Source of the DNA: an uncultured Pseudomonadales bacterium
GTDB taxonomy: Bacteria > Pseudomonadota > Gammaproteobacteria > Pseudomonadales > Cellvibrionaceae
Length of the DNA stretch: 15,144 bases
NCBI GenBank assembly: GCA_938048505.1
Contig: CALIUX010000214.1
Span: forward strand, 1-15,144
Reading direction: 5' to 3'
Shown here: one piece after another, positions 1,198 through 12,659 of the stretch
Layout of the letters: every line of letters starts with the position of its first letter
How positions within the stretch are numbered: the first letter of the stretch is position 1
Made by a program: the position numbers and the translations under genes
Notes under the pieces: model-generated
Seen by the model: the letters and a program-made list of their open reading frames with translations, nothing else
What the model was told of the DNA's origin: nothing
Database searches by the model: none

Positions 1198-4100
1198 ATG
1201 CTCTTTTCACCCCTAAAAATAAAACATCTAATCGCCAAAGGTAGTAGTAAGGCCTTAATTACATTGGGGCTAGGTGCGTTACTCTCTGCTTGTGGTGGTG
1301 CGGTTGATACTACCTCATCGAACTCTGTCAGCAGTAATAGTCCCGATCCAAGCAGCTCCAGCATACCGGCAAGCTCAGCCCCTATCTCTTCCAGCTTGGC
1401 CCCTGTATCTTCTACACCGCTCTCTTCTATACCTGCCTCATCTACACCGGCTTCCTCTATACCAGTTTCATCATCAGTCTCTTCAAGCGCCGTTTCTACC
1501 AATAGCGCCGAGAGCTCGAGTAGCGCCAGTAGTTCAAACCCACCACAGACTAACTTAGCCCTTGGTAAAGTTGCGACGCAGGTGAGTGATTTTAATGGTG
1601 ATTTTACTGCCGACAAAGCAGTCAATGGTTCACTTAATGACTTCAGCACTACGTTACGAGACACCAGCCCTTGGTGGGAAGTTGATTTAGAGGGCCTCTA
1701 TCAGATTAATACGATTGACCTCCATAACCGTGCGAGTTGCTGTAAAGATCGATTAAGTGACTTTTATGTGTTTGTTTCTGCAGACCCCTTTGTTTCAAAA
1801 GACCTCCAGGAAACACTTGATCAGCCTGGTGTGGTTGCTTTGCGTATGCCAGGCCAAGCGGCACAGCCGACAGAGCTTCAAGTGAATACAGCGGGGCGTT
1901 ATGTGCGAGTCCAGTTAGTTGGGCAGAATTTTTTACACATTGCTGAGGTCGTGGTTCATGGTAGCCCAATACCTAGCGAGGTGGTCTATGCCATTAATGT
2001 TGGTGGTGATGCCTATGTCGCTAGCGATAATACCGCTTTTAGCGCAGATGCTTTTTTTAGCGAAAGCGAGTTTCTCGATAGGGACTTTGCCGTTGAAGGT
2101 ACAACGGATGATGTGATTTATCAAAGTGAGCGCTATGGCGATTTTGAATACAATCTGCCCGTAACAACGGGTTCTTATACGGTAGAGTTATTATTCACGG
2201 AAGCCAAACACCAAGCAGCTGGTTTGCGCACATTTGATATTTGGATTGAAGACAAATTTGTTGTTGACGACTTCGATATTTTTGCTGCAGCTTCTAACCA
2301 ACGACGCAGACCTGCAAGGTTGATTTACGGTGATATCGAAGTTGACGATGGCCTACTGACAATAGCCTTTGAAAGCAATGTTGACAACGCTAAGCTTTCT
2401 GGGATTAAAGTAACGAGCAATGATGGTGCTGCCATTTCAAATAATAACGGTGGCGGTGATAATGATAGTGATAATGACGGCATTCCCGATGCTGCCGACC
2501 AATGTCCTAACAAAGCAGGGGCTAATACCAGTGATGGCTGCCCTGAAGCCGATGCTGAAGTTGTCGACTTGTACAGTGCTCAGTGCTTGGGTTGTCACGG
2601 TGATGAGAATGGTAATGGCATTGGCGTTGTTGAAGCAGGCGCCTTGACCGCTTTGGAATGTGATGAATGTACAACGGTTGATGAATTGGCGAGCTACATT
2701 GAAGCAGAAATGCCACCTAACAATAAGGTCGCTTGTGATCTGGATTGTGGCATTCGGCTAGCGAATTATATCTTTGACTTCTTTGAAGGTTATGAAGGCA
2801 ATTTATCGGGTGAGCAGTTATACGATAACCTTTGTGCAGACTGTCACGGTGATGGCGAACAAACAACCGATTTACTCGGTGCCCGATTAGTGCCGGCCAG
2901 CTGTAAAAGCTGCGCCAATCAGGAAGCGTTGATTTCGCGTATTGAAAGTAGTATGCCAACAAACTCGCCTGAGAAGTGCGGTTTAGAGTGTTCCACCAAG
3001 ATCACCGATTATATCGTGAATAACTTCGAAGGTTATGAGGGTATTGCTTCTTCAACTACCACAGCTAACCTAGCAGCGCCATCAGGCTCCATCGCGTTTG
3101 AGAATGGCACAGCAAACCTTAGCTGGATTCTGCCCGAAGAAAAGCCCGATTCTTGGGCCCTTGAGCGCTGGAATAAACAGGCCGCGTCTTGGGAGTCTAT
3201 TGCGCTATTACCAGGCCAGTCAAACAGCTACCAGCATGCCGATAACGATCGAGGCCATTACCGCCTTTACTCAATTACCAATAAAACAGCGTCTTTTCCT
3301 GCCCACTTCCGCTCGCCTAGCTATGTGCTTTACGCAAAAGGTATTGATACTTGGGGAACCGCTGATGAATTTCATTTTGCCCAGGTAGAACATAGTGGCG
3401 ACTTTGTTGCTGAAGTCACACTTGACTCCGTTGAGCGCACACATCGATGGACCAAAGCTGGGCTGATGATCCGTACGTCATTGGATGCTAACTCTAGAAA
3501 TGTATTTGCATTGTTTGGTGTGGATATGGGCGCACTTTACACAATGCGCTTAGAGGATGGTGGCAGGACTGCGAGGGTAACTGAAGGCGATAATGCTGGC
3601 ATCAAACCCGAAATTAAAGCGCCTGGTATGATCCGGTTAACCCGCACGGGTAATGTAATTAAAGCAGAAGCTCGAACGAAAGACGGGTCTTGGACTGATT
3701 TAGGCGAGCAAACACTTGATTTGCCTGAAACTGTTCATGTAGGCCTTGCCTTAACATCAAATACCCGCAGCCGCACCGCACGTGCTGTATTCAGTGATTT
3801 TCGTATTGATGGGAAAGCAGTCGATGATGCCCAAGGTGTTTCAATTGGTGCAGAATCTCGTTCGGTCTTCTACCCTTCACCAAACAATAACTCCGGGCAA
3901 ATCGATATTTCTCCGAGTGTCGTTTCACAGAGTCTCACCCATATATCGCGGTTTGAGTATGCTAACCAGATTGCTGATTTGTTTCCTGGCAATATCTTTG
4001 ATTTAACCTTGCCAGGCGGTGATCCTACTTCTGGTTATGAGGTAGGCATTAACACCACCACACTGGGAGTTGAACGCTATAACAATGCGGCTCAAAGCAT

Positions 4101-5433
4101 TGGGGCGGCGGTTGCAGCTGCAGAAAGAGATGAATTGGTTGACAATCTCGACTGTGATCCGAGCTCAAACGATATTTGCCTTTCTAGTTATATTAGCGAA
4201 ATAGGCCAGCGCTACACTAGGCGACCAGTGTCCGATGAGCTGAAAAATATTTTGAAAGACGTTTACCAAGAGGTTTCGGCGAACCTTTCAGATGAAATCG
4301 CAATACAAGCCATTCACGAAATGCTTGCGCAGTCTTCTAGTTTTCTCTACCGCTTTGACTCGGTGGGTTCTGGTATGCGTCCAGGTGTGACCGTACCGGT
4401 TACGGGCTATGAAATGGCTACTCGTTTGGCGTCAGCCATCTGGGCGGGTGCGCCAGATGCTCAATTACTTGAACTTGCGGAATTTGGTCTATTGTCTACA
4501 CCGGCCCAGATCAAGGCGCAGGCTCAACGCATGGTGAACGATGCAAAAGCCAGACGAGGGTTTAGAAACTTTTATCGTCAATGGTTGCACCTTGAACGGC
4601 TGGCAGAAGCAGAGAAGAATATTGACGGCGTCAATTTCGATGAGACCGTTGCAGAAGAAATGTTAAAAGGCTTTGATGCTTTTGTTGAGGAGGTTGTTTT
4701 TGGTTCGGGTGGCGGAACACTCAACGATCTACTAACAGCCCCATTGGTTGGTAACAGTAATACCTTAGCATCGTTTACAGGCATTCCATCTAATTCGAAC
4801 GATATCGTTGTGCAATCCACTAGTGGTTCTGCTGGTAATCAACGGACTGGTATTATGGGTCAGCCAGCCATGTTAACTAACTTAGCGCACCCAATCGAAA
4901 CATCAATCGTTGAGCGTGGAGTATTTGTTAATAGGCAATTGTTGTGTGCAGGTTTTCAGCCACCGCCTGAAGAAGTTCCTGATCTGCAGAGTATTGACCC
5001 CGATGGAAAACGAGCGCGTGAAGTACTCGATAGCATAACGTCTGACCCCACGCAGTGTGCTTTCTGTCATAAATTGATTAATGATCTTGGCGCAACAATG
5101 GAACATTTTGACGCGCTAGGTCGCTATCGAACAGAACACTTTGGCTTATCGATCGATGCATTTGGGACGGTTTTCGCTCGTGATGCGGAGAATAGCTCTG
5201 CTCAGGTTGACGGTTTGGCCGAGCTCAATGAATACCTGGCTTCTTTAGACAATGTTAAAGCCTGTATAGCTAAGCAATTTTTAGGCTATGCCACGCAACG
5301 TATACCCAGTGCGGCTGAGCAACCTTCTATCGATTGGTTGGTTAAGACTCTTGAAAGCAAAGATTGGAACTTGAAAGAAATGCTCGTTGAAGCAACTCAA
5401 ACGCCAATGTTCCTTTACAAAAAATTACCGTAG
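1198..5433 (+). CDS. Multidomain cytochrome-containing PSD/DUF1592 surface lipoprotein
   Basis: The ATG at 1198 is chosen over an in-frame TTG at 1171 because GGAGG at 1189-1193 precedes it and the protein then begins with a lipoprotein signal ending LLSAC (Cys32). G-G after the Cys suits outer-membrane sorting. Modules in order: Ser/Pro linker (about 33-115), discoidin/F5-8C-like (119-260), malectin-like (262-412), Asp-rich thrombospondin-3-like calcium repeats (418-450), tandem cytochrome c domains with CLGCH (463-467) and CADCH (546-550) and probable Met ligands in EMPP and SMPT, an FN3-like segment (about 622-705), a jelly-roll-like domain (about 708-885), then DUF1587, 1595, 1592, 1588 with a third haem motif CAFCH (1287-1291), and DUF1585. 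The total is 1411 residues. These PSD/PSCyt domains are known from planctomycetes and marine proteobacteria, and their reaction is unknown. A surface redox role tied to polysaccharide binding is inference. It is followed 20 bases later by its DUF1552 partner. Confidence 0.92.
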   Translation: MLFSPLKIKHLIAKGSSKALITLGLGALLSACGGAVDTTSSNSVSSNSPDPSSSSIPASSAPISSSLAPVSSTPLSSIPASSTPASSIPVSSSVSSSAVSTNSAESSSSASSSNPPQTNLALGKVATQVSDFNGDFTADKAVNGSLNDFSTTLRDTSPWWEVDLEGLYQINTIDLHNRASCCKDRLSDFYVFVSADPFVSKDLQETLDQPGVVALRMPGQAAQPTELQVNTAGRYVRVQLVGQNFLHIAEVVVHGSPIPSEVVYAINVGGDAYVASDNTAFSADAFFSESEFLDRDFAVEGTTDDVIYQSERYGDFEYNLPVTTGSYTVELLFTEAKHQAAGLRTFDIWIEDKFVVDDFDIFAAASNQRRRPARLIYGDIEVDDGLLTIAFESNVDNAKLSGIKVTSNDGAAISNNNGGGDNDSDNDGIPDAADQCPNKAGANTSDGCPEADAEVVDLYSAQCLGCHGDENGNGIGVVEAGALTALECDECTTVDELASYIEAEMPPNNKVACDLDCGIRLANYIFDFFEGYEGNLSGEQLYDNLCADCHGDGEQTTDLLGARLVPASCKSCANQEALISRIESSMPTNSPEKCGLECSTKITDYIVNNFEGYEGIASSTTTANLAAPSGSIAFENGTANLSWILPEEKPDSWALERWNKQAASWESIALLPGQSNSYQHADNDRGHYRLYSITNKTASFPAHFRSPSYVLYAKGIDTWGTADEFHFAQVEHSGDFVAEVTLDSVERTHRWTKAGLMIRTSLDANSRNVFALFGVDMGALYTMRLEDGGRTARVTEGDNAGIKPEIKAPGMIRLTRTGNVIKAEARTKDGSWTDLGEQTLDLPETVHVGLALTSNTRSRTARAVFSDFRIDGKAVDDAQGVSIGAESRSVFYPSPNNNSGQIDISPSVVSQSLTHISRFEYANQIADLFPGNIFDLTLPGGDPTSGYEVGINTTTLGVERYNNAAQSIGAAVAAAERDELVDNLDCDPSSNDICLSSYISEIGQRYTRRPVSDELKNILKDVYQEVSANLSDEIAIQAIHEMLAQSSSFLYRFDSVGSGMRPGVTVPVTGYEMATRLASAIWAGAPDAQLLELAEFGLLSTPAQIKAQAQRMVNDAKARRGFRNFYRQWLHLERLAEAEKNIDGVNFDETVAEEMLKGFDAFVEEVVFGSGGGTLNDLLTAPLVGNSNTLASFTGIPSNSNDIVVQSTSGSAGNQRTGIMGQPAMLTNLAHPIETSIVERGVFVNRQLLCAGFQPPPEEVPDLQSIDPDGKRAREVLDSITSDPTQCAFCHKLINDLGATMEHFDALGRYRTEHFGLSIDAFGTVFARDAENSSAQVDGLAELNEYLASLDNVKACIAKQFLGYATQRIPSAAEQPSIDWLVKTLESKDWNLKEMLVEATQTPMFLYKKLP

Positions 5434-5453: not shown

Positions 5454-6806
5454 ATGATCGTTTTAAAAACAAACCGACGCCGCCTTCTTCAGAAAATGGT
5501 GGCGAGCAGTGCGAGTCTGCCTTTTTTAAGTTACATGCCGAGTCTTGGTGCACAAGAGAGCGCCAGGAAACGCCTTCTCTTAATGTTTTCACCGAATGGG
5601 ACAATTGGTTCTGAGTTTTTCCCTTCTGGCAATGGCAATAACTTTCAGCTGAAACGCATCCTGCAGCCTTTAGAGAGCCTAAAAAGTGAGCTCTTGATAC
5701 TCAAAGGCATGCAAAATCGAATAAGTGGCGTCGGCGATGCCCATGCACGTGGCATTGTTGGTTTATGGACGGGTGCTGAACTTTTAGCTGCCAATACTTT
5801 ACCGGGCCAGGAGGATGCAGAAGAGGGCCTCGCATTTGCTGCTGGCCCATCGGTTGATCAAGTGATTGCGCCAACAGCCAGTCAAGGTCTGCGTTTTCGC
5901 TCTCTCGAATATGGAGTGAAAGTCGTCAGGAATGATGCTACAGCGAGAATGATTTATGCTGGCCGTAATCGGCCGATAGAGCCTGAGCGAAATCCCTATG
6001 ATGCGTTTGATCGTCTCTATGGGGACTTTAACGCGGGTAGTGCTGAGCAGGCTGCTTTGCGTGATAAAAATCTGCGTTTAAAGAGTGTACTCGATGCCGT
6101 TACTCGAGATATGACACGCGTCCGGCCCTTTTTGTCGGCCGAAGATAAGGTTAAGCTAGAGCGCCACACTGATTCGGTGAGGGATATCGAGCGCGCACTG
6201 CAAGCACCCGATGACTCCGACTTAGTTTGCCAAGTCCCTAACCGCGATACTCGTAATATTACTCGCTTTAATGATAATCGCCATGTCGAAAAATTAGGGC
6301 GGCTATTTATCGATATGATGGTTTCATCCTTTGCGTGTAATCGAACAGCCGTCGCGTCACTGCAATATAGCCAAGCCTTTGGCAATATTGGTTACCCTCA
6401 TATCGATGAGGACGGTAATCACCATGCTCGTTCTCATGCTCCAGATTCTGATGCCGGCATTAAAGAGAGACTGATCAAGACAAATGCATGGTATGCCGGT
6501 GAGTTCGCGTACTTAGTACAGTCACTCAAAGATACGCCAGACCCTTCAGGTAACGGCAGCCTTTTAGATAACAGCTTCGCAATATGGGGTAATGAATTAG
6601 GCAAGGGCAACAGCCATTCACGTAGTGATATTCCCTTTGTTTCAGCCGGTAGTTGTCAAGGCTACTTCAGAACAGGGCGCTATATTCAGCAAAGCTCACA
6701 AACAAACCATGCTCAGTTACTTGTTTCTATGTTGAATGCTTTTGGTTTACAGCAGAACGGTATCGGTGAGTTCAATAACGTAGGGCCGCTGGCTGATCTA
6801 ACTTAA
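5454..6806 (+). CDS. DUF1552 family protein, Tat-exported
   Basis: The 450-residue product matches the DUF1552 family in length and layout and in its usual pairing with a DUF1592/DUF1588 gene. The start ATG has GAGG at 5442-5445 with 8-base spacing and lies 20 bases after the lipoprotein stop, so the two are co-transcribed. The N-terminus has a twin-arginine motif (NRRRLLQ, residues 7-13), a hydrophobic stretch and a likely cleavage site near LGA-Q (33/34), which suggests folded export and perhaps a cofactor. The family is named for a HxxSHH motif. Here the corresponding stretch is H324-A-R-S-H328-A329 preceded by H323, so the last His is absent. A recognisable core follows: FAIWGNELGKGNSHSRSDIP (about 379-398). 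Function is unknown, and a joint role with the lipoprotein is inferred from conserved neighbourhood. No clear terminator follows it. Confidence 0.9.
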   Translation: MIVLKTNRRRLLQKMVASSASLPFLSYMPSLGAQESARKRLLLMFSPNGTIGSEFFPSGNGNNFQLKRILQPLESLKSELLILKGMQNRISGVGDAHARGIVGLWTGAELLAANTLPGQEDAEEGLAFAAGPSVDQVIAPTASQGLRFRSLEYGVKVVRNDATARMIYAGRNRPIEPERNPYDAFDRLYGDFNAGSAEQAALRDKNLRLKSVLDAVTRDMTRVRPFLSAEDKVKLERHTDSVRDIERALQAPDDSDLVCQVPNRDTRNITRFNDNRHVEKLGRLFIDMMVSSFACNRTAVASLQYSQAFGNIGYPHIDEDGNHHARSHAPDSDAGIKERLIKTNAWYAGEFAYLVQSLKDTPDPSGNGSLLDNSFAIWGNELGKGNSHSRSDIPFVSAGSCQGYFRTGRYIQQSSQTNHAQLLVSMLNAFGLQQNGIGEFNNVGPLADLT

Positions 6807-7611: not shown

Positions 7612-8441
7612 TTAGGTTAGGTTATAATGGTTTCGCCAAAAATCAAAGTAACTACCCCAAATGCCAAGACTCATGCTATCAGATACCAGCTGGAATTTGT
7701 TATCACGCGTACTGTATATGACAGGCCGCATCTACAACAAACATTGACACTTGAGGGGATTCTATTTCGCCTTCGTACAGGCATTCCGTGGAGAGATCTC
7801 CCGCAAGAGTTTGGGCATTGGGCAACGACGTGTTTCGTCGGTTTAATCTTTGGTCAAAGAAGGGCGTTATGGGCGTGATATTTCGTTATTTATCGCGCCT
7901 TCATGATACGCAATGGTTATTTATTGATGGCAGCATTGTTAAAGTACACCAAGATGGTTCGAATGTAGCGACCCCCGATAGCCAAAAGATAGGCAAAAGC
8001 CGTGGTGGCAATTCAACTAAAATTCACTTAGCCGTTGATAGTGGTGGTTTGCCTGTTCATTTTGAGCTGTCAGGTGGGCAAACACATGATGTTGTTCATG
8101 CTGAATCATTAATCTCTTCCTCACCGAAAGCCGAAGTTTTTATTGCTGGTAAGGGCTATGATAGCGATAAGCTAAGAGATTTTATTGAGGCGGCTGGTAG
8201 TGATTCAAAGATCCCCAGAAAGTCAAATAAAAAGAAAGGCAATCAGCATATGGACTGGTGTCTGTATCAATATCGACACCTTGTTGAAAACGTTTTTTTG
8301 AAGATTAAAAAGTACCGAGCCATTGCAACTCGGTACGATAAATTGGCAAGAAATTACCAGAGCATGCTTGCTCTCGCGTTTTCAATGCCTTGGCTACCCA
8401 TGTGGGTTGATTAATTTATGTGCTGCAAAGATCAACACGCT
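7565..8441 (+). mobile_element. IS5-family insertion sequence, copy 1
   Basis: The element is 877 bp. The left end begins GGCGTGTTGATCTTT, and the right end, read as its complement, begins AGCGTGTTGATCTTT, which makes near-perfect terminal inverted repeats of about 15 bp. CTAG occurs immediately outside both ends (7561-7564 and 8442-8445), which fits the 4-bp YTAR target duplication known for IS5/IS427-type elements. It contains one transposase gene in the plus direction, disrupted in three ways. Relative to copy 2 it carries a TTAGGTTAGG-type duplication before the gene. It may still be mobilised in trans, since the ends look intact. Confidence 0.9.
7661..8414 (+). pseudogene. IS5-family transposase, two frameshifts and lost catalytic Asp
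   Basis: The gene starts MPRLMLSDTSWN at 7661 and reads into a stop near 7745, where 10 bases present in copy 2 are missing. It resumes in the next frame (TLEGILFRLRTGIPWRDLP) and shifts again near 7825, where 2 extra bases lie. It then stays open to TAA 8412-8414. The last part carries the first DDE aspartate (WLFIDGS) and the glutamate (YRHLVENVFLKIKKYRAIATRYDKL gives the Y-R-E-type region). The second aspartate, ADKGYDSD in copy 2, reads AGKGYDSD here. Even a repaired frame should therefore be catalytically dead. It was a DDE enzyme for cut-and-paste of its own IS. Confidence 0.9.
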
Positions 8442-8445
8442 CTAG

Positions 8446-8535
8446 CAATACAAGAGGATCGCTTGGATCGATCTGATTGATTAAATCTTCACCAAAAAAT
8501 GAGGTTTGATGGCCTAGCGGGGCTAAGGTGAGCAT
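8446..8535 (-). pseudogene. Possible N-terminal remnant of another transposase
   Basis: The minus strand from an ATG at 8535 is open to the edge of IS copy 1 and reads MLTLAPLGHQTSFFGEDL, then INQIDPSDPLVLL. If the IS and one CTAG are removed, the frame continues VSHLDLDQLV to a TGA near 7530. A short F-F/D-P-x-x-P-L pattern like this is typical of the N-termini of some IS5/IS1182-type transposases, but the match is by memory of the pattern only. No SD is seen and nothing downstream continues the family. It competes with the plus-strand small hydrophobic ORF over the same DNA. Confidence 0.25.
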
Positions 8536-8870: not shown

Positions 8871-11036
8871 TTATTTATTTTCCATATAATCAAACCGCAA
8901 CCGCTCCTCATCACACCCTCTATGCAAATAAAGCTTGGTGTTTTCGTTTGGAGCTAGCGCTCCTCCTGATGGATGTATACACAGCCCAGAGCTCTTATGC
9001 TTTAAACTTCCAAATGAAGTTATTTCATATGCAAGTTTAGCTGGATTCCCATTACAATCGGACCAAAGCACTAAGGGAATAGCATTTACAGCAAACCCTC
9101 CTGAAGGATGAAGACATTTACCACTTGAAACATGCTGTATAGAACCATTATCCAACAACTTGAAATTTTGACCATCCGAAGAGCAGTCACTTTTCAAATA
9201 TATATTAGTCCCGTTTGCCGGATTACTTTGTCCTGCATGAGAAGAAATACATTTTCCATCAGAGTGTACAAAATTTAATGGTCTTTCTTGGTAACTAAAC
9301 TCAAGTCGAGATTCATTGCAGGCGTTGAAAAGAACTAGGGGCGTACCATTATTAGGGTCCGCAGTACCCGATAGTGGATGAATACAATAACCTGACGAGC
9401 GATGTTTTAAACTATTTCCATTAGTGATTTCAAACTCTAATTGACTCAAAGGTTCGTTACAATCGGTGAATTCTAGCCTTACCTCACTACTTATTAAACC
9501 GTTCTTTGGACGAACACAAAGCCCACTAGCTATGTGCTTGATGTGACCTTTTGATGTGAAATCAAAGGCTTGCCCTAAGGTATCACAGTTGGTGGAAAGC
9601 TCGATATTATCACCAGCGGCTGGCTTATGATTATCGCCTATTGCAGATATGCATTTCCCGGCAGCATGCACAAAATTAGAGTAATTATTTTTGGTAACTG
9701 CCCAAACTCGAACAGGGCTTTCTTTGAATACAGCTTCTCCGAGACCTTCGTAGTTACCATTCTCACCCACGATCCGGCCCAACCAGTAGTCCCTATAAAA
9801 ATGCAAGTGACCAGAATCTTGGTTGTTATTTCCCGCATACCCTTTGAAATGCCCCCCATGTACCGCACCGTTGGGGATTTTGTTGAGATGAGGAAGAACT
9901 GATTGCATATATTCATCATAAACATGCAGATGCTCATGGATAAATACTTCTGTAGGCTCACTTTTTGAGGACGTATCTCCACGATATGTTTTGAAGGTAT
10001 AAAGGCTACTATTATTGAGCGCATTAATAGTGGTCCAGTTCGAGTGTTTTTCATACGCATTAGGTATGCCAGCAGGATTATAGCCCCAGCCACCATCGGC
10101 CATTGTCCCTGATGTGAATGCCACTTGAATAGCATCGTATTGCCCTTTATTAACAAGAGCATTGACATGATCTTGAATGTATTCAGCCCTAGGTAAATAT
10201 CGGTAAGATGGAGCCCCACTTTCTGAATAATGGATTTGTAGCTCCATATCAGTAACAGGTATGCTTGTTTCTATGACATCCGTCGTGAAATTGACTTTAT
10301 TGTCTGTGATTTGCGCTATCCACGAAGGCAGGTGCTTCTCATAAGAACGACGAAGGTTGTTTACAGTACTCGTATCAATAGTTCCCGATGAGGCGGGCAC
10401 GTTATGCGAGCTAGTACCATTCACCACGGTTCGGGCAGGTATATCAGTTTCCCTTAAAATTAGCAGCAAAGTTCTGACATAGTAGTCTGGAGTTGCTTGA
10501 TCTCTGTCGCCCCAACCAGCTTTTTCAATGAAGATGTTTGCTCGAGAATTATCGGCAGAAAGCGAGCTTTGATTCGCTCCACCCCCATAAGCTAGATACC
10601 TCCGCGTGGTTTTTGACTGTAACCGGTGCAGGCCAGCTCGCCCTGCGCTTTCAGCTCGAATATTTGAGATTGCCCACTCAGCACCATCCAATGAACAACT
10701 TCCAAGAGTTACATTTGGTGTGGTAGTACTAGCAACAAGGCATTGGTCCGTGCTTTCATTTCGTATATTCCAATAACTGCCATCTGAAATGAAGCGCCAA
10801 TGAAAACGATCATTACCTGAGTAGAAATCATTATAAACCCCTCCCTGTCTAAAGTTTAGACTTTCAAACCCGAATGTCTCGCCATCAAGGTTTGGATTGT
10901 CAGGAACGAATGCGCTTTCAAAAAATAGCCGCCATTCCCCTGTAGAAAGTGCTGACAGATTATCAAAAGCATAAGTTTTCGATAATGGAAGCATAGATGA
11001 TAATAAGCTAGAAGCTAAAAGTATTTTTTTCAACAT
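8871..11036 (-). CDS. Secreted HEXXH zincin-like protein with two ricin-type lectin repeats
   Basis: The 721-residue product starts with a signal peptide (MLKKILLASSLLSSMLPLSKTYA, cut near 23/24) behind ACAGGA with about 10-base spacing. Residues about 80-170 contain a ricin-like segment (YWNIRNESTDQCLVAST). Residues about 180-450 hold the putative protease domain with H367-E-H-L-H371, the HEXXH zinc motif. E434 in NYEGLGEAVF is a candidate third ligand or support residue, but the metallopeptidase family is not assigned. The C-terminus is a duplicated unit of about 134 residues (454-587 and 588-721). Each unit opens NFVH-x2-GKCIS and has further Cys-containing subrepeats of the type SSGKCLHPSGG, a beta-trefoil lectin pattern. 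It probably acts outside the cell on a glycosylated target; the substrate is inferred, not shown. The gene stands alone between two IS copies. Confidence 0.85.
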   Translation of the reverse strand: MLKKILLASSLLSSMLPLSKTYAFDNLSALSTGEWRLFFESAFVPDNPNLDGETFGFESLNFRQGGVYNDFYSGNDRFHWRFISDGSYWNIRNESTDQCLVASTTTPNVTLGSCSLDGAEWAISNIRAESAGRAGLHRLQSKTTRRYLAYGGGANQSSLSADNSRANIFIEKAGWGDRDQATPDYYVRTLLLILRETDIPARTVVNGTSSHNVPASSGTIDTSTVNNLRRSYEKHLPSWIAQITDNKVNFTTDVIETSIPVTDMELQIHYSESGAPSYRYLPRAEYIQDHVNALVNKGQYDAIQVAFTSGTMADGGWGYNPAGIPNAYEKHSNWTTINALNNSSLYTFKTYRGDTSSKSEPTEVFIHEHLHVYDEYMQSVLPHLNKIPNGAVHGGHFKGYAGNNNQDSGHLHFYRDYWLGRIVGENGNYEGLGEAVFKESPVRVWAVTKNNYSNFVHAAGKCISAIGDNHKPAAGDNIELSTNCDTLGQAFDFTSKGHIKHIASGLCVRPKNGLISSEVRLEFTDCNEPLSQLEFEITNGNSLKHRSSGYCIHPLSGTADPNNGTPLVLFNACNESRLEFSYQERPLNFVHSDGKCISSHAGQSNPANGTNIYLKSDCSSDGQNFKLLDNGSIQHVSSGKCLHPSGGFAVNAIPLVLWSDCNGNPAKLAYEITSFGSLKHKSSGLCIHPSGGALAPNENTKLYLHRGCDEERLRFDYMENK

Positions 11037-11260: not shown

Positions 11261-12143
11261 AGCGTGTTGATCTTTCCAGTATAAAAAATGAACGGCATTG
11301 GGTTTGGTTATAATGGTTTCACCACAAAATCAAAGTAACCGCTCCAAATGCCGAGACTCATGTTATCAGATGCTGCTTGGAATTTCTTATCACGCGTAAT
11401 GCATATGTCAGGTCGCATCTATAATAAACCTGAGCATAGAATGACACTGGAAGGAATTTTGTTTCGCCTTCGAACAGGTATCCCTTGGCGAGATTTACCT
11501 CCAGAGTTTGGGGGCTGGAGCAGCGTATTCTGCCGGTTTAACCTTTGGTCAAAAAAGGGCGTGATGAGCGGTATCTTCAGTCATTTACCGAAACTTCATG
11601 ATACACAATGGTTATTTATTGATGGCAGTATTGCTAAAGTCCATCAAGATGGAGCTAACGTAGCCGAACCTAAAGCTCAAGATATCGGTAATAGTCGTGG
11701 GGGCAATTCGACTAAGATCCATTTAGCGGTTGATAGCGGTGGCTTGCCAGTACATTTTGAACTGTCTGGAGGGCAAGCAAATGACGTTGTTCATGCTGAA
11801 TCGTTGATATCTAACTCGCCTGAATCGGCTGTTGTCATTGCGGACAAAGGCTATGACAGTGACAAGCTTAGAGAATTTATTAAAGCCGCCGGAGGGGACT
11901 CAGAAATCCCAAGAAGGTCAAATAATAAAAAGGGGAATCAACATATGGATTGGTGATTATAGCTTATATAAGTACCGCCACCTTGTTGAAAATGCCTTTT
12001 TGAAGATCAAAAAATACCGAGCTATAGCGACTCGATATGACAAATTAGCGAGAAATTACCATAGTATGGTGGCCCTAGCATTTTCTATGATGTGGCTACC
12101 TATGTGGATTGATTAAAGAATGTACCACAAAGGTCAACATGCT
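11261..12143 (+). mobile_element. IS5-family insertion sequence, copy 2
   Basis: The element is 883 bp. Its left end AGCGTGTTGATCTTT and its right end, complement AGCATGTTGACCTTT, form near-perfect inverted repeats. CTAG stands outside both ends (11257-11260 and 12144-12147). It is clearly homologous to copy 1 along its whole length but diverged, with many silent differences. The length gap of 6 bp is fully explained by the indels seen: 10-base and 2-base differences in the transposase gene, a 7-base insertion here, and an about 10-base duplication in the copy 1 leader. The two are therefore separate old insertions, or copies that have drifted. Confidence 0.9.
11348..12116 (+). pseudogene. 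IS5-family transposase, split by a 7-bp insertion
   Basis: From ATG 11348 the frame encodes MPRLMLSDAAWN and continues through TLEGILFRLRTGIPWRDLP, the first DDE Asp (WLFIDGS) and the second (ADKGYDSD) to HMDW. It then meets TGA at 11954-11956. Compared with copy 1, 7 extra bases (ATTATAG) lie between TGGTG and CTTATATAAG. Removing them restores W-C-L-Y-K-Y-R-H-L-V-E and the rest to TAA 12114-12116. The catalytic Glu (HLVENAF) is thus cut off from the two Asp residues. All three DDE residues are otherwise intact, so this copy is one indel away from function, unlike copy 1. Confidence 0.9.
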
Positions 12144-12659
12144 CTAGTAACGACTTGGAAATTTTTTAGCTACTATACAACACTTACAAACATACTCGTC
12201 GGGATGTGGGCCTTTCTGTCTTTGGTGCAAATTTCAGGGGTTCTAGGAGAAGCAGCTCATAATGCAAATGCTGTCACGGCTATAACATTTTATATTGTCA
12301 CTGTAGGTATCGGTAATTATATGATGTTCAGCATTAAGGAGCTGAACTTGTTACGAAAATTTGCAGACTTATCTGTGCATGCTGTTGTTCCAGCTATGAT
12401 GCTTATTTATTGGCTTCTTTACATAGATAAAGCCAGCATATCGTTTAAATTTGTTCATTACTGGATGATTTACCCTATCGTATATGCCGCATATACGTTA
12501 ATGCATGGAGTCTGGACAGGTTTTTATCCTTATCCTTTTGTTAACGTCAAAGCGTTAGGTGCAAACAGGGTTTTGCTTAATGCTTGTGTTATGGCATTAA
12601 GCGTTTTAATCGGTGGTTTTTTATTTGTTGGGTTAGCAAAACTATTGAGTGCTTTATAG
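12120..12659 (+). pseudogene. Pr6Pr-like integral membrane protein, 5'-truncated
   Basis: The 179-residue frame is almost wholly hydrophobic, with about five membrane segments. It contains WKFFSYYTTLTNILVGMWAF near its start, a hallmark of the Pr6Pr/FAR-17a-like membrane family, and HYWMIYPIVYAAYTLMHGVW later. In relatives as I know them, this hallmark is preceded by a further membrane segment, which is missing. The only ATG before it (12120) lies in the right end of IS copy 2, and no good SD precedes it. With the IS removed, the frame meets a TAA seven codons before the CTAG, so the 5' end was already lost or shifted before insertion. The function of the family is unknown. Its stop overlaps by 6 bases the stop of the convergent MFS gene. 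Confidence 0.7.

Follow-up and report, generated by a model that had tools for sequence, protein, structure and literature searches.

A three-haem PSD lipoprotein and its DUF1552 partner as a candidate cell-wall-associated redox enzyme in Marinagarivorans

The kind of protein considered here is already in print: PSCyt proteins with carbohydrate-binding modules (CBMs) appear in the available text of one study (PMC5615132), and X183/X132 proteins, some of them with CBMs, in that of three others (PMC8981238, PMC10916295, PMC12542752). According to the same available text of the first of these (He et al., 2017; PMC5615132), PSCyt3/PSD genes are numerous in Verrucomicrobia, and PSCyt3 genes usually adjoin one family of unknown genes. 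Here, we analyze a gene of this kind in a stretch of 15,144 nucleotides (nt), contig CALIUX010000214.1 of assembly GCA_938048505.1, hereafter the window. The gene encodes a lipoprotein with three haem sites and a C-terminal block of PSD domains (the PSD lipoprotein), and the host bacterium is a marine Marinagarivorans of the family Cellvibrionaceae, whose assembled genome is 72.5% complete. A preliminary description of this DNA had called the chemistry of the domains undescribed; no function for PSD/PSCyt3 or DUF1552 was indeed found in the literature searched (most subscription journals lay outside its reach), but the protein kind itself had already been described. As far as that literature shows, what is new is the exact order of the modules, the quantified pairing and co-divergence with a second gene, and the proposed division between relay haems and an open haem.

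The gene for the PSD lipoprotein forms a two-gene module with that for a DUF1552 protein. We estimate the probability at roughly 40% that the two proteins together constitute an exported, cell-wall-associated redox enzyme, with X183 cytochromes as its electron relay and the haem of the DUF1588 domain as its active site. The anatomy of the lipoprotein, its pairing and co-divergence with DUF1552, and the conservation of both partners are direct observations on the sequences. The gene is a single uninterrupted frame at positions 1198-5433 (1411 codons; forward strand, as are all features of the window unless noted), with a GGAGG ribosome site just 5' of the ATG at 1198. A signal peptide with the lipobox LSAC, found by a lipobox pattern scan and ending in Cys32 (1198..1293), is followed by a poly-serine tether of 86 residues, 33-118, of which 44% are Ser (1294..1551); linkers of this style are also found on other secreted proteins of Marinagarivorans. 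The single lipoprotein proposed earlier at 1198..5433 is thus borne out by its open frame, ribosome site, lipobox, and tether, with limits that end before the partner gene. The latter begins 20 nt past the stop codon and encodes a DUF1552 (HXXSHH) protein of 450 amino acids with a twin-arginine translocation (Tat) signal (5454..6806; PF07586, E 2e-69, 235.3 bits against a cut-off of 30).

All 11 intact PSD genes of the same genome have a DUF1552 gene next to them, at gaps of -47 to 143 nt (gene starts were chosen mechanically, making small gaps and overlaps approximate). In four Marinagarivorans genomes, which hold 12-27 PSD4 genes each when matches less than 600 nt apart on one strand are merged as one gene, 79 of 88 PSD4 genes are followed on the same strand by DUF1552 at 735-1307 nt, measured profile to profile. 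Six of the other nine, all divergent genes in genomes G010, G038, and G056, have a DUF1501-type gene within 3.5 kb downstream; the partner family is therefore exchangeable. In nine other genomes of the family, selected for having few contigs and counted only among the matches listed, which miss weaker ones, 28 of 29 DUF1552 matches have PSD4 upstream and 28 of 32 PSD4 matches have DUF1552 downstream. Loci sampled from Gammaproteobacteria, Planctomycetota, and Verrucomicrobia agree: wherever the contig ran on past the PSD gene, DUF1552 came next (10 of 10 loci, G010 and G038 accounting for two of them a second time), and two more loci end at a contig edge. Across 61 genomes of the family, PSD4 was present in 33 and DUF1552 in 32, all within those 33, with neither in the remaining 28, and the match counts of the two were correlated at a Spearman coefficient of 0.99. 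In some Cellvibrionaceae, both families run to dozens of copies. In G028, another genome of the family, PSD4 was matched 51 times, the highest number in the survey, and DUF1552 at least 31 times (57 of 62 and 31 of 55 candidates scored), alongside 56 matches to sulfatases and none to LPMO_10; this gammaproteobacterium is planctomycete-like in its gene content.

The two partners also diverge together. Among the 11 paralogous pairs of the window's genome, distances between PSD proteins and those between their DUF1552 neighbors were correlated at r 0.90 (permutation p 5e-5), and still at r 0.84 (p 3e-4) once the two pairs most closely related to that of the window were removed. All 11 pairs belong to a single genome, so that this co-divergence is not accounted for by the history of the species. 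A broken PSD gene with in-frame stops (L010, 9594-11356) has no DUF1552 match on its contig.

The haem sites of the PSD lipoprotein fall into two classes. Three CxxCH motifs, at residues 463, 546, and 1287, agree with the three haem motifs proposed earlier; composition alone would predict 0.005, and none of 20000 shuffles of the protein reached three. The Pfam model Cytochrome_CBB3 scored above its cut-off over two stretches, and these correspond to two X183-type cytochromes, the first with CLGCH at 463-467 and Met505 (2533..2790; PDB 8q1v, E 4e-9) and the second with CADCH at 546-550 and Met586 (2806..3036; PF13442, E 4e-12; 8q1v, E 6e-11). Met505 and Met586 align with the Met of the solved chain 8q1v, a lipoprotein domain that we take to be a TtX183 domain of Teredinibacter turnerae, in a comparison that covered the two N-terminal sites of the window protein. 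The 11 own-genome proteins have 14 N-terminal CxxCH sites in all, and each is followed by a Met at 33-43 residues from its first Cys (13 as MP, 1 as MT). In the solved TtX183A and B, the axial ligand is Met, according to the accessible part of PMC10916295. The tandem cytochromes of the preliminary description accordingly hold for two haem domains, both of X183 type, while the third haem site lies inside DUF1588.

That third site belongs to the PSD block, which opens with a divergent DUF1587-like segment (residues 914-970; 3937..4107) that aligns with the start of the PSD blocks of the paralogues; PF07626 (DUF1587) matched 7 of 11 own-genome members scanned. It continues with a sub-threshold DUF1595 (PSD5)-like domain (residues 994-1053; 4177..4356; PF07637, 20.6 of 34.2 bits), DUF1592 (PSD4; residues 1069-1196; 4402..4785; PF07631, E 1e-26, 94.3 bits against a cut-off of 23.3), DUF1588 (PSCyt3; residues 1216-1313 with CAFCH at 1287-1291; 4843..5136; PF07627, E 2e-25, 89.2 against 27 bits), and DUF1585 (PSD2; residues 1336-1405; 5203..5412; PF07624, E 8e-11, 42 against 25.8 bits). 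Of the full PSD set claimed before, then, DUF1592, DUF1588, and DUF1585 stand above cut-off in that order, but DUF1595 is sub-threshold and DUF1587 goes without a Pfam match. A profile of the block found nothing meaningful among solved structures, the best match being a cytochrome c555 at E 0.008 and only around the CxxCH.

Conservation was read from 70 PSD blocks, which remained from 72 matching proteins after two short matches were dropped, the broken L010 copy having been excluded beforehand; they are relatives from our own searches and not a random sample. The DUF1588 CxxCH and Arg1240 were each kept in 70 of 70, and Arg1216 (67), Arg1274 (66), Glu1302 (65), Asp1305 (66), and Arg1311 (65) were near-fixed. 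No second His or Met was conserved across these 70 blocks: every other His was below 50%, the best Met was Met1112 (43, with Leu in 25), and the best other Cys reached 47 of 70. Removal of six near-duplicates (more than 90% identical) left the same picture, with CxxCH in 64 of 64, Met1112 in 38, and Tyr1051 in 55. Because no second His or Met is conserved in the 70 relatives, we infer an open haem in DUF1588; the pattern suggests a haem that may be accessible on one side, i.e., catalytic or ligand binding, and that would be fed by, or feed, the X183 relay.

The DUF1552 partner carries twin Arg residues at positions 8-9, a Tat-type signal. In an alignment of 45 DUF1552 proteins (37 of the 120 listed of 1400 matches plus 8 own-genome copies; protein searches scored about 8000 candidates each), D135, H328, D372, and H388 were invariant, H97, D287, H323, H324, and E381 were conserved in at least 90%, and Y168 and W346 were also conserved; no Cys was conserved among the 45. 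This pattern would be in keeping with a metal enzyme. A profile search of solved structures returned no relative of DUF1552. By hhalign, its profile matched that of 14 sulfatases of the family at 67.7% (score 46.8) over only 75 C-terminal columns, against 1.5% (score 25.5) for the reversed profile and at most 0.44% (score at most 20.7) for 19 valid column shuffles. The DUF1552 profile was also linked to that of DUF1501 at 92% over 36 columns, the DUF1501 alignment being built from 11 of 12 frames (L034 was left out), and the DUF1501 model matches some DUF1552 places as well. An alkaline-phosphatase-like fold for DUF1552 is possible. One short DUF1552 copy (L002, 10373-11551; 392 amino acids) stops before the usual C terminus.

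Between the serine tether and the haems, the lipoprotein carries modules of lectin type. The Pfam models F5_F8_type_C and F5_F8_type_C_2 both scored above cut-off over residues 121-257 (1558..1968; PF22633, E 4e-14; PF00754, E 2e-10), and the closest solved match was the lectin FBP32 (PDB 3cqo, E 2e-15); F-type-lectin-like is a better label than the earlier discoidin-like. This domain keeps R178-A-S-C-C-K-D-R185, i.e., two Arg and a Cys pair. The malectin-like module noted previously is confirmed at residues 262-403 (1981..2406; PF11721, E 4e-26, 92.3 bits against 23; malectin structures, E 6e-8). A calcium repeat is present as proposed but weak, an Asp-rich, thrombospondin-3-like segment at residues 416-441 (2443..2520; TSP_3, PF02412, 16 of 25 bits, sub-cut-off; PDB 5wtl, E 1e-4). 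Beyond the cytochromes, the proposed FN3-like module did not hold up: the protein has no FN3 Pfam match at E<=1, a profile of the FN3/ConA-like part reached only E 0.4 against solved structures, and the segment (3115..3342) appears in the alignment of relatives as a spacer that is conserved in close relatives and has no family match. The proposed jelly-roll-like module was seen as a DUF1349-like (ConA-like, jelly-roll-type) match at residues 722-871 (3361..3810), but below the cut-off (PF07081, 24.2 of 32.4 bits). Malectin occurs in 6 of the 11 own-genome PSD proteins and the F-type-lectin-like domain only in that of the window. The Ser linker and an F-type-lectin-like domain recur in another protein (L061, 1156-4383, reverse strand), which is 44% alike over residues 10-257 of P0001, our label for the window PSD lipoprotein, and further carries Big_7, one CxxCH, and a sub-threshold DUF1585. 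It is followed by a Tat-signal protein without a Pfam match (L061, 1-1134, reverse strand), whose start resembles, by eye, the DUF1501-type partner at L040; the couple is perhaps a variant of the two-gene PSD layout.

In the complete genome of a sister species, G056, 16 non-PSD malectin frames were chosen for their likeness to P0001 (the genome may contain more), and 11 of the 16 carry hydrolase or esterase domains: GH10, GH11 (two), GH43, GH62, glucuronoyl esterase, polysaccharide deacetylase, GDSL, SASA, and PETase/S9-like. Most of these families are associated with xylan breakdown. A simple pattern found a lipobox together with a Ser linker in 7 of the 11. The other five comprise one sub-threshold Cip1-like protein, one cytochrome, and three without another Pfam domain, and four of these five have one CxxCH. 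Malectin proteins with one CxxCH each were observed at L073 (1139-2941), L069 (1505-3031), L070 (1575-3464), and L078 (1426-3165); that of L073 ends in a Cip1-like domain (E 6e-5 to solved CIP1, 3zyp), and its malectin domain is identical to that of L069. Of three non-PSD malectin proteins scanned in the window's genome, one is a subtilase and two are without other domains. The scaffold of lipobox, Ser linker, and malectin is thus common to the PSD protein and to hydrolases and esterases of the sister species, which would fit docking on cell wall sugars.

Together, these features can be arranged into a mechanism. The PSD lipoprotein would sit on the outer cell surface, its lectin-type modules perhaps holding it on a hemicellulose-type polysaccharide. 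The two His/Met X183 haems would serve as a one-electron relay, and the DUF1588 haem, lacking a conserved sixth ligand, as the putative open catalytic site. DUF1552, with its conserved His, Asp, and Glu residues and weakly sulfatase-like C terminus, may be the substrate- or metal-binding half. Jointly, the two proteins would oxidize or peroxidize cell wall carbohydrate or a group attached to it, and may in this way contribute to breaking down the walls of plants or algae. The preliminary description had likewise proposed a surface-held redox enzyme that docks on sugar, and the lipoprotein nature, three haem sites, and hydrolase-type scaffold favor that proposal; the redox role is plausible. 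Clustering with polysaccharide loci, which that description had named as a check, was not borne out at the ten own-genome loci scanned.

Several observations weigh against this arrangement. No CAZyme (carbohydrate-active enzyme) or sulfatase was found among 21 Pfam-matched flanking proteins (26 scanned at ten own-genome loci, 5 without a match), and the flanking genes are of housekeeping type (among them IMP dehydrogenase, GMP synthase, SecG, triosephosphate isomerase, AspRS, a Rep-type helicase, a Mur ligase, and a flavoprotein); a link to polysaccharide loci by neighborhood is thereby weakened. The full fucose-binding motif of F-type lectins, which we take to be H-x24-R-x-D-x4-R/K, has no match in the lectin-like domain, where Leu153 stands in the place of the His and Ser180 in that of the Asp, and the Tyr-Phe pair that is presumably the disaccharide site of animal malectin aligns with Lys-His (malectin row 6s7t); these two departures weaken the case for sugar binding. 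In the malectin tree, in which 7 of 20 inner branches are well supported, PSD malectins group apart from hydrolase malectins (2 changes against a shuffled mean of 5.5). Three of the 88 PSD4 genes had no partner found, one of them a broken gene of the window's own genome (C35), and co-divergence is partly explained by duplication of the pair as a unit, which is expected even without contact between the proteins. The window protein has no DUF1587 Pfam match at E<=1. The missing conserved sixth ligand is no proof of an open haem, in that subfamilies may differ or the partner may supply a ligand, and the position of Tyr1051 is occupied by Tyr in 59 blocks and by Phe in 7, out of 70. The sulfatase-like match of DUF1552 is confined to its C terminus, and DUF1501 reached only 19.9% against the same 14 sulfatases. 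Two further ideas fared poorly: recent swapping of malectin domains between PSD proteins and hydrolases, since PSD malectins group among themselves, and a link to sulfated polysaccharides through sulfatases, which had 0 matches in the window's own incomplete genome and in M. algicola and 5 and 3 in the other two genomes of the genus.

One alternative to a two-protein enzyme is a surface electron outlet: the three haems would conduct electrons, supplied by the cell or a partner dehydrogenase, to humics, metals, or oxygen, and the sugar modules would do no more than anchor the cell on its particle. A lipoprotein with three haem sites would suit this role, and the redox properties of X183, as given in the available text of PMC10916295, are in line with electron transfer, with the reduced state quickly lost in air. 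Yet no porin-cytochrome part occurs among the 21 Pfam-matched flanking proteins, which include one di-haem peroxidase, on contig C79, and a conserved DUF1552 partner together with the multiplicity of PSD4 genes in each Marinagarivorans genome suits many substrates better than one generic outlet, which leaves this explanation improbable.

A donor role for lytic polysaccharide monooxygenases (LPMOs), in which the X183 haems would pass electrons to a secreted AA10 LPMO, the role put forward for Cbp2D, appears rather improbable too. The isolated X183 of Cbp2D does reduce LPMOs, slowly (available text of PMC8981238), and within the family, 27 of the 33 genomes that have PSD4 also have LPMO_10, against 6 of the 28 that lack PSD4, with counts correlated at 0.40. 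However, the window's own genome has no LPMO_10 match in its 72.5%, the three sister species have one match each (weak but over the cut-off), and eight genomes with at least 10 PSD4 matches have 0-1 LPMO_10 match each, LPMO_10 being the only LPMO family searched. In the portions of the literature at hand, three TtX183 domains failed to feed their cognate LPMO (PMC10916295), and growth was hurt more by loss of cbp2D or cbp2E than by loss of LPMOs (PMC12542752). A donor role would also leave DUF1552 without a function. As a general role, LPMO feeding is therefore weakened: it fits the co-occurrence within the family but not the copy numbers.

Comparably low odds attach to a periplasmic role, in which the protein would act on oligosaccharides after their import and not at the surface; He et al. 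drew this conclusion for the PSCyt proteins of Verrucomicrobia. The PSCyt proteins of freshwater Verrucomicrobia were predicted to be periplasmic or cytoplasmic (available text of PMC5615132), and the Tat-type signal of DUF1552 is compatible with that location; against it stand the lipobox and long Ser tether, which are common to several polymer-type hydrolases and esterases of the sister species. A MauG-like maturation, in which the open haem would oxidize residues of DUF1552 and DUF1552 would be the real enzyme, would agree with the near one-to-one pairing and co-divergence, with relay haems and a putatively open haem in one chain, and with the conserved aromatic residues Y168 and W346, but is very improbable in view of the absence of a CCP_MauG Pfam match at E<=1 in the window protein and of any Cys conserved across the alignment of 45 DUF1552 proteins.

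If the two-protein enzyme is an oxidative polysaccharide enzyme, part of the carbon turnover in the sea and in lakes would gain an unrecognized enzyme class, and the poor growth of cbp2D mutants on cellulose might be due to something else than LPMO feeding. The window and its genus offer three handles on it: a co-diverging partner, a contrast between His/Met relay haems and a haem with no conserved second ligand, and a scaffold in common with hydrolases and esterases of xylan-type families. A bolder form of the proposal, which we consider unlikely, is that PSD and DUF1552 make up a separate class of secreted, haem-dependent polysaccharide oxidizer, independent of LPMOs: DUF1552 would bind the polysaccharide chain, peroxide or oxygen would be activated at the open DUF1588 haem, and the X183 haems would relay electrons. 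Were this true, dozens of such pairs, many of them equipped with docking modules of their own, would serve bacteria poor in or devoid of LPMOs for an oxidative attack on cell walls, and polysaccharide oxidation would be the function so far missing for the planctomycete-specific domains.

Elsewhere in the window, two IS4/5-type transposase copies (7639-8448 and 11326-12150), 77-84% alike, in the same direction, and about 3.7 kb apart, flank a gene at 8871-11036 (reverse strand) for a 721-residue protein with an HEHLH motif, metallopeptidase-like by eye, and ricin-B-lectin stretches. On contig C79, a true di-haem peroxidase gene (L007, 898-1884, forward strand; CCP_MauG, E 4e-52) lies 6.8 kb upstream of a PSD-DUF1552 pair, and the gene after the peroxidase is that of a histidine kinase.

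Of the systems known to biology, di-haem peroxidases (BCCP/MauG) combine a relay haem and a haem without an obvious second ligand in one chain; the likeness to the PSD lipoprotein, which is without a CCP_MauG match, is a functional analogy only. The PSCyt3/PSD proteins of Verrucomicrobia and Planctomycetes include some with CBM-type modules and have a conserved unknown gene adjoining PSCyt3 (available text of PMC5615132); DUF1552 adjoins the PSD gene in the eight loci of Verrucomicrobia/Planctomycetes type examined here. A figure legend of the same paper lists LamG, PA14, NPCBM, CBM6, Bac_rhamnosid_N, and F5_F8, and not the malectin found in the window protein, and its text places sulfatases near PSCyt genes, whereas sulfatases had no match in either the window's own genome or that of M. 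algicola. TERTU_2913 of Teredinibacter turnerae consists of X122, three X183 domains, of which structures have been solved, and X132 (available text of PMC10916295, as are the following statements on this protein). It shares with the window protein X183 cytochromes, the tandem in the window matching 8q1v, and a C-terminal CxxCH domain, but has a Cip1-like X122 and no lectin modules named; X122 is related to CIP1, and a Cip1-like end is also present in the G056 protein L073. Cbp2D of Cellvibrio japonicus, with CBM2, X158, X183, FN3, DUF1587, and X132 (available text of PMC8981238, here and below), is likewise a secreted multi-domain protein of the Cellvibrio group that joins a carbohydrate-type module to an X183 cytochrome, and its C-terminal CxxCH domain X132 occupies the place of the PSD block; by domain order only, we infer that X132 equals DUF1592/1588/1585. 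Unlike Cbp2D, the window protein has no YceI/X158 or CBM2 match at E<=1, and it carries two X183 domains with F-type-lectin-like and malectin modules.

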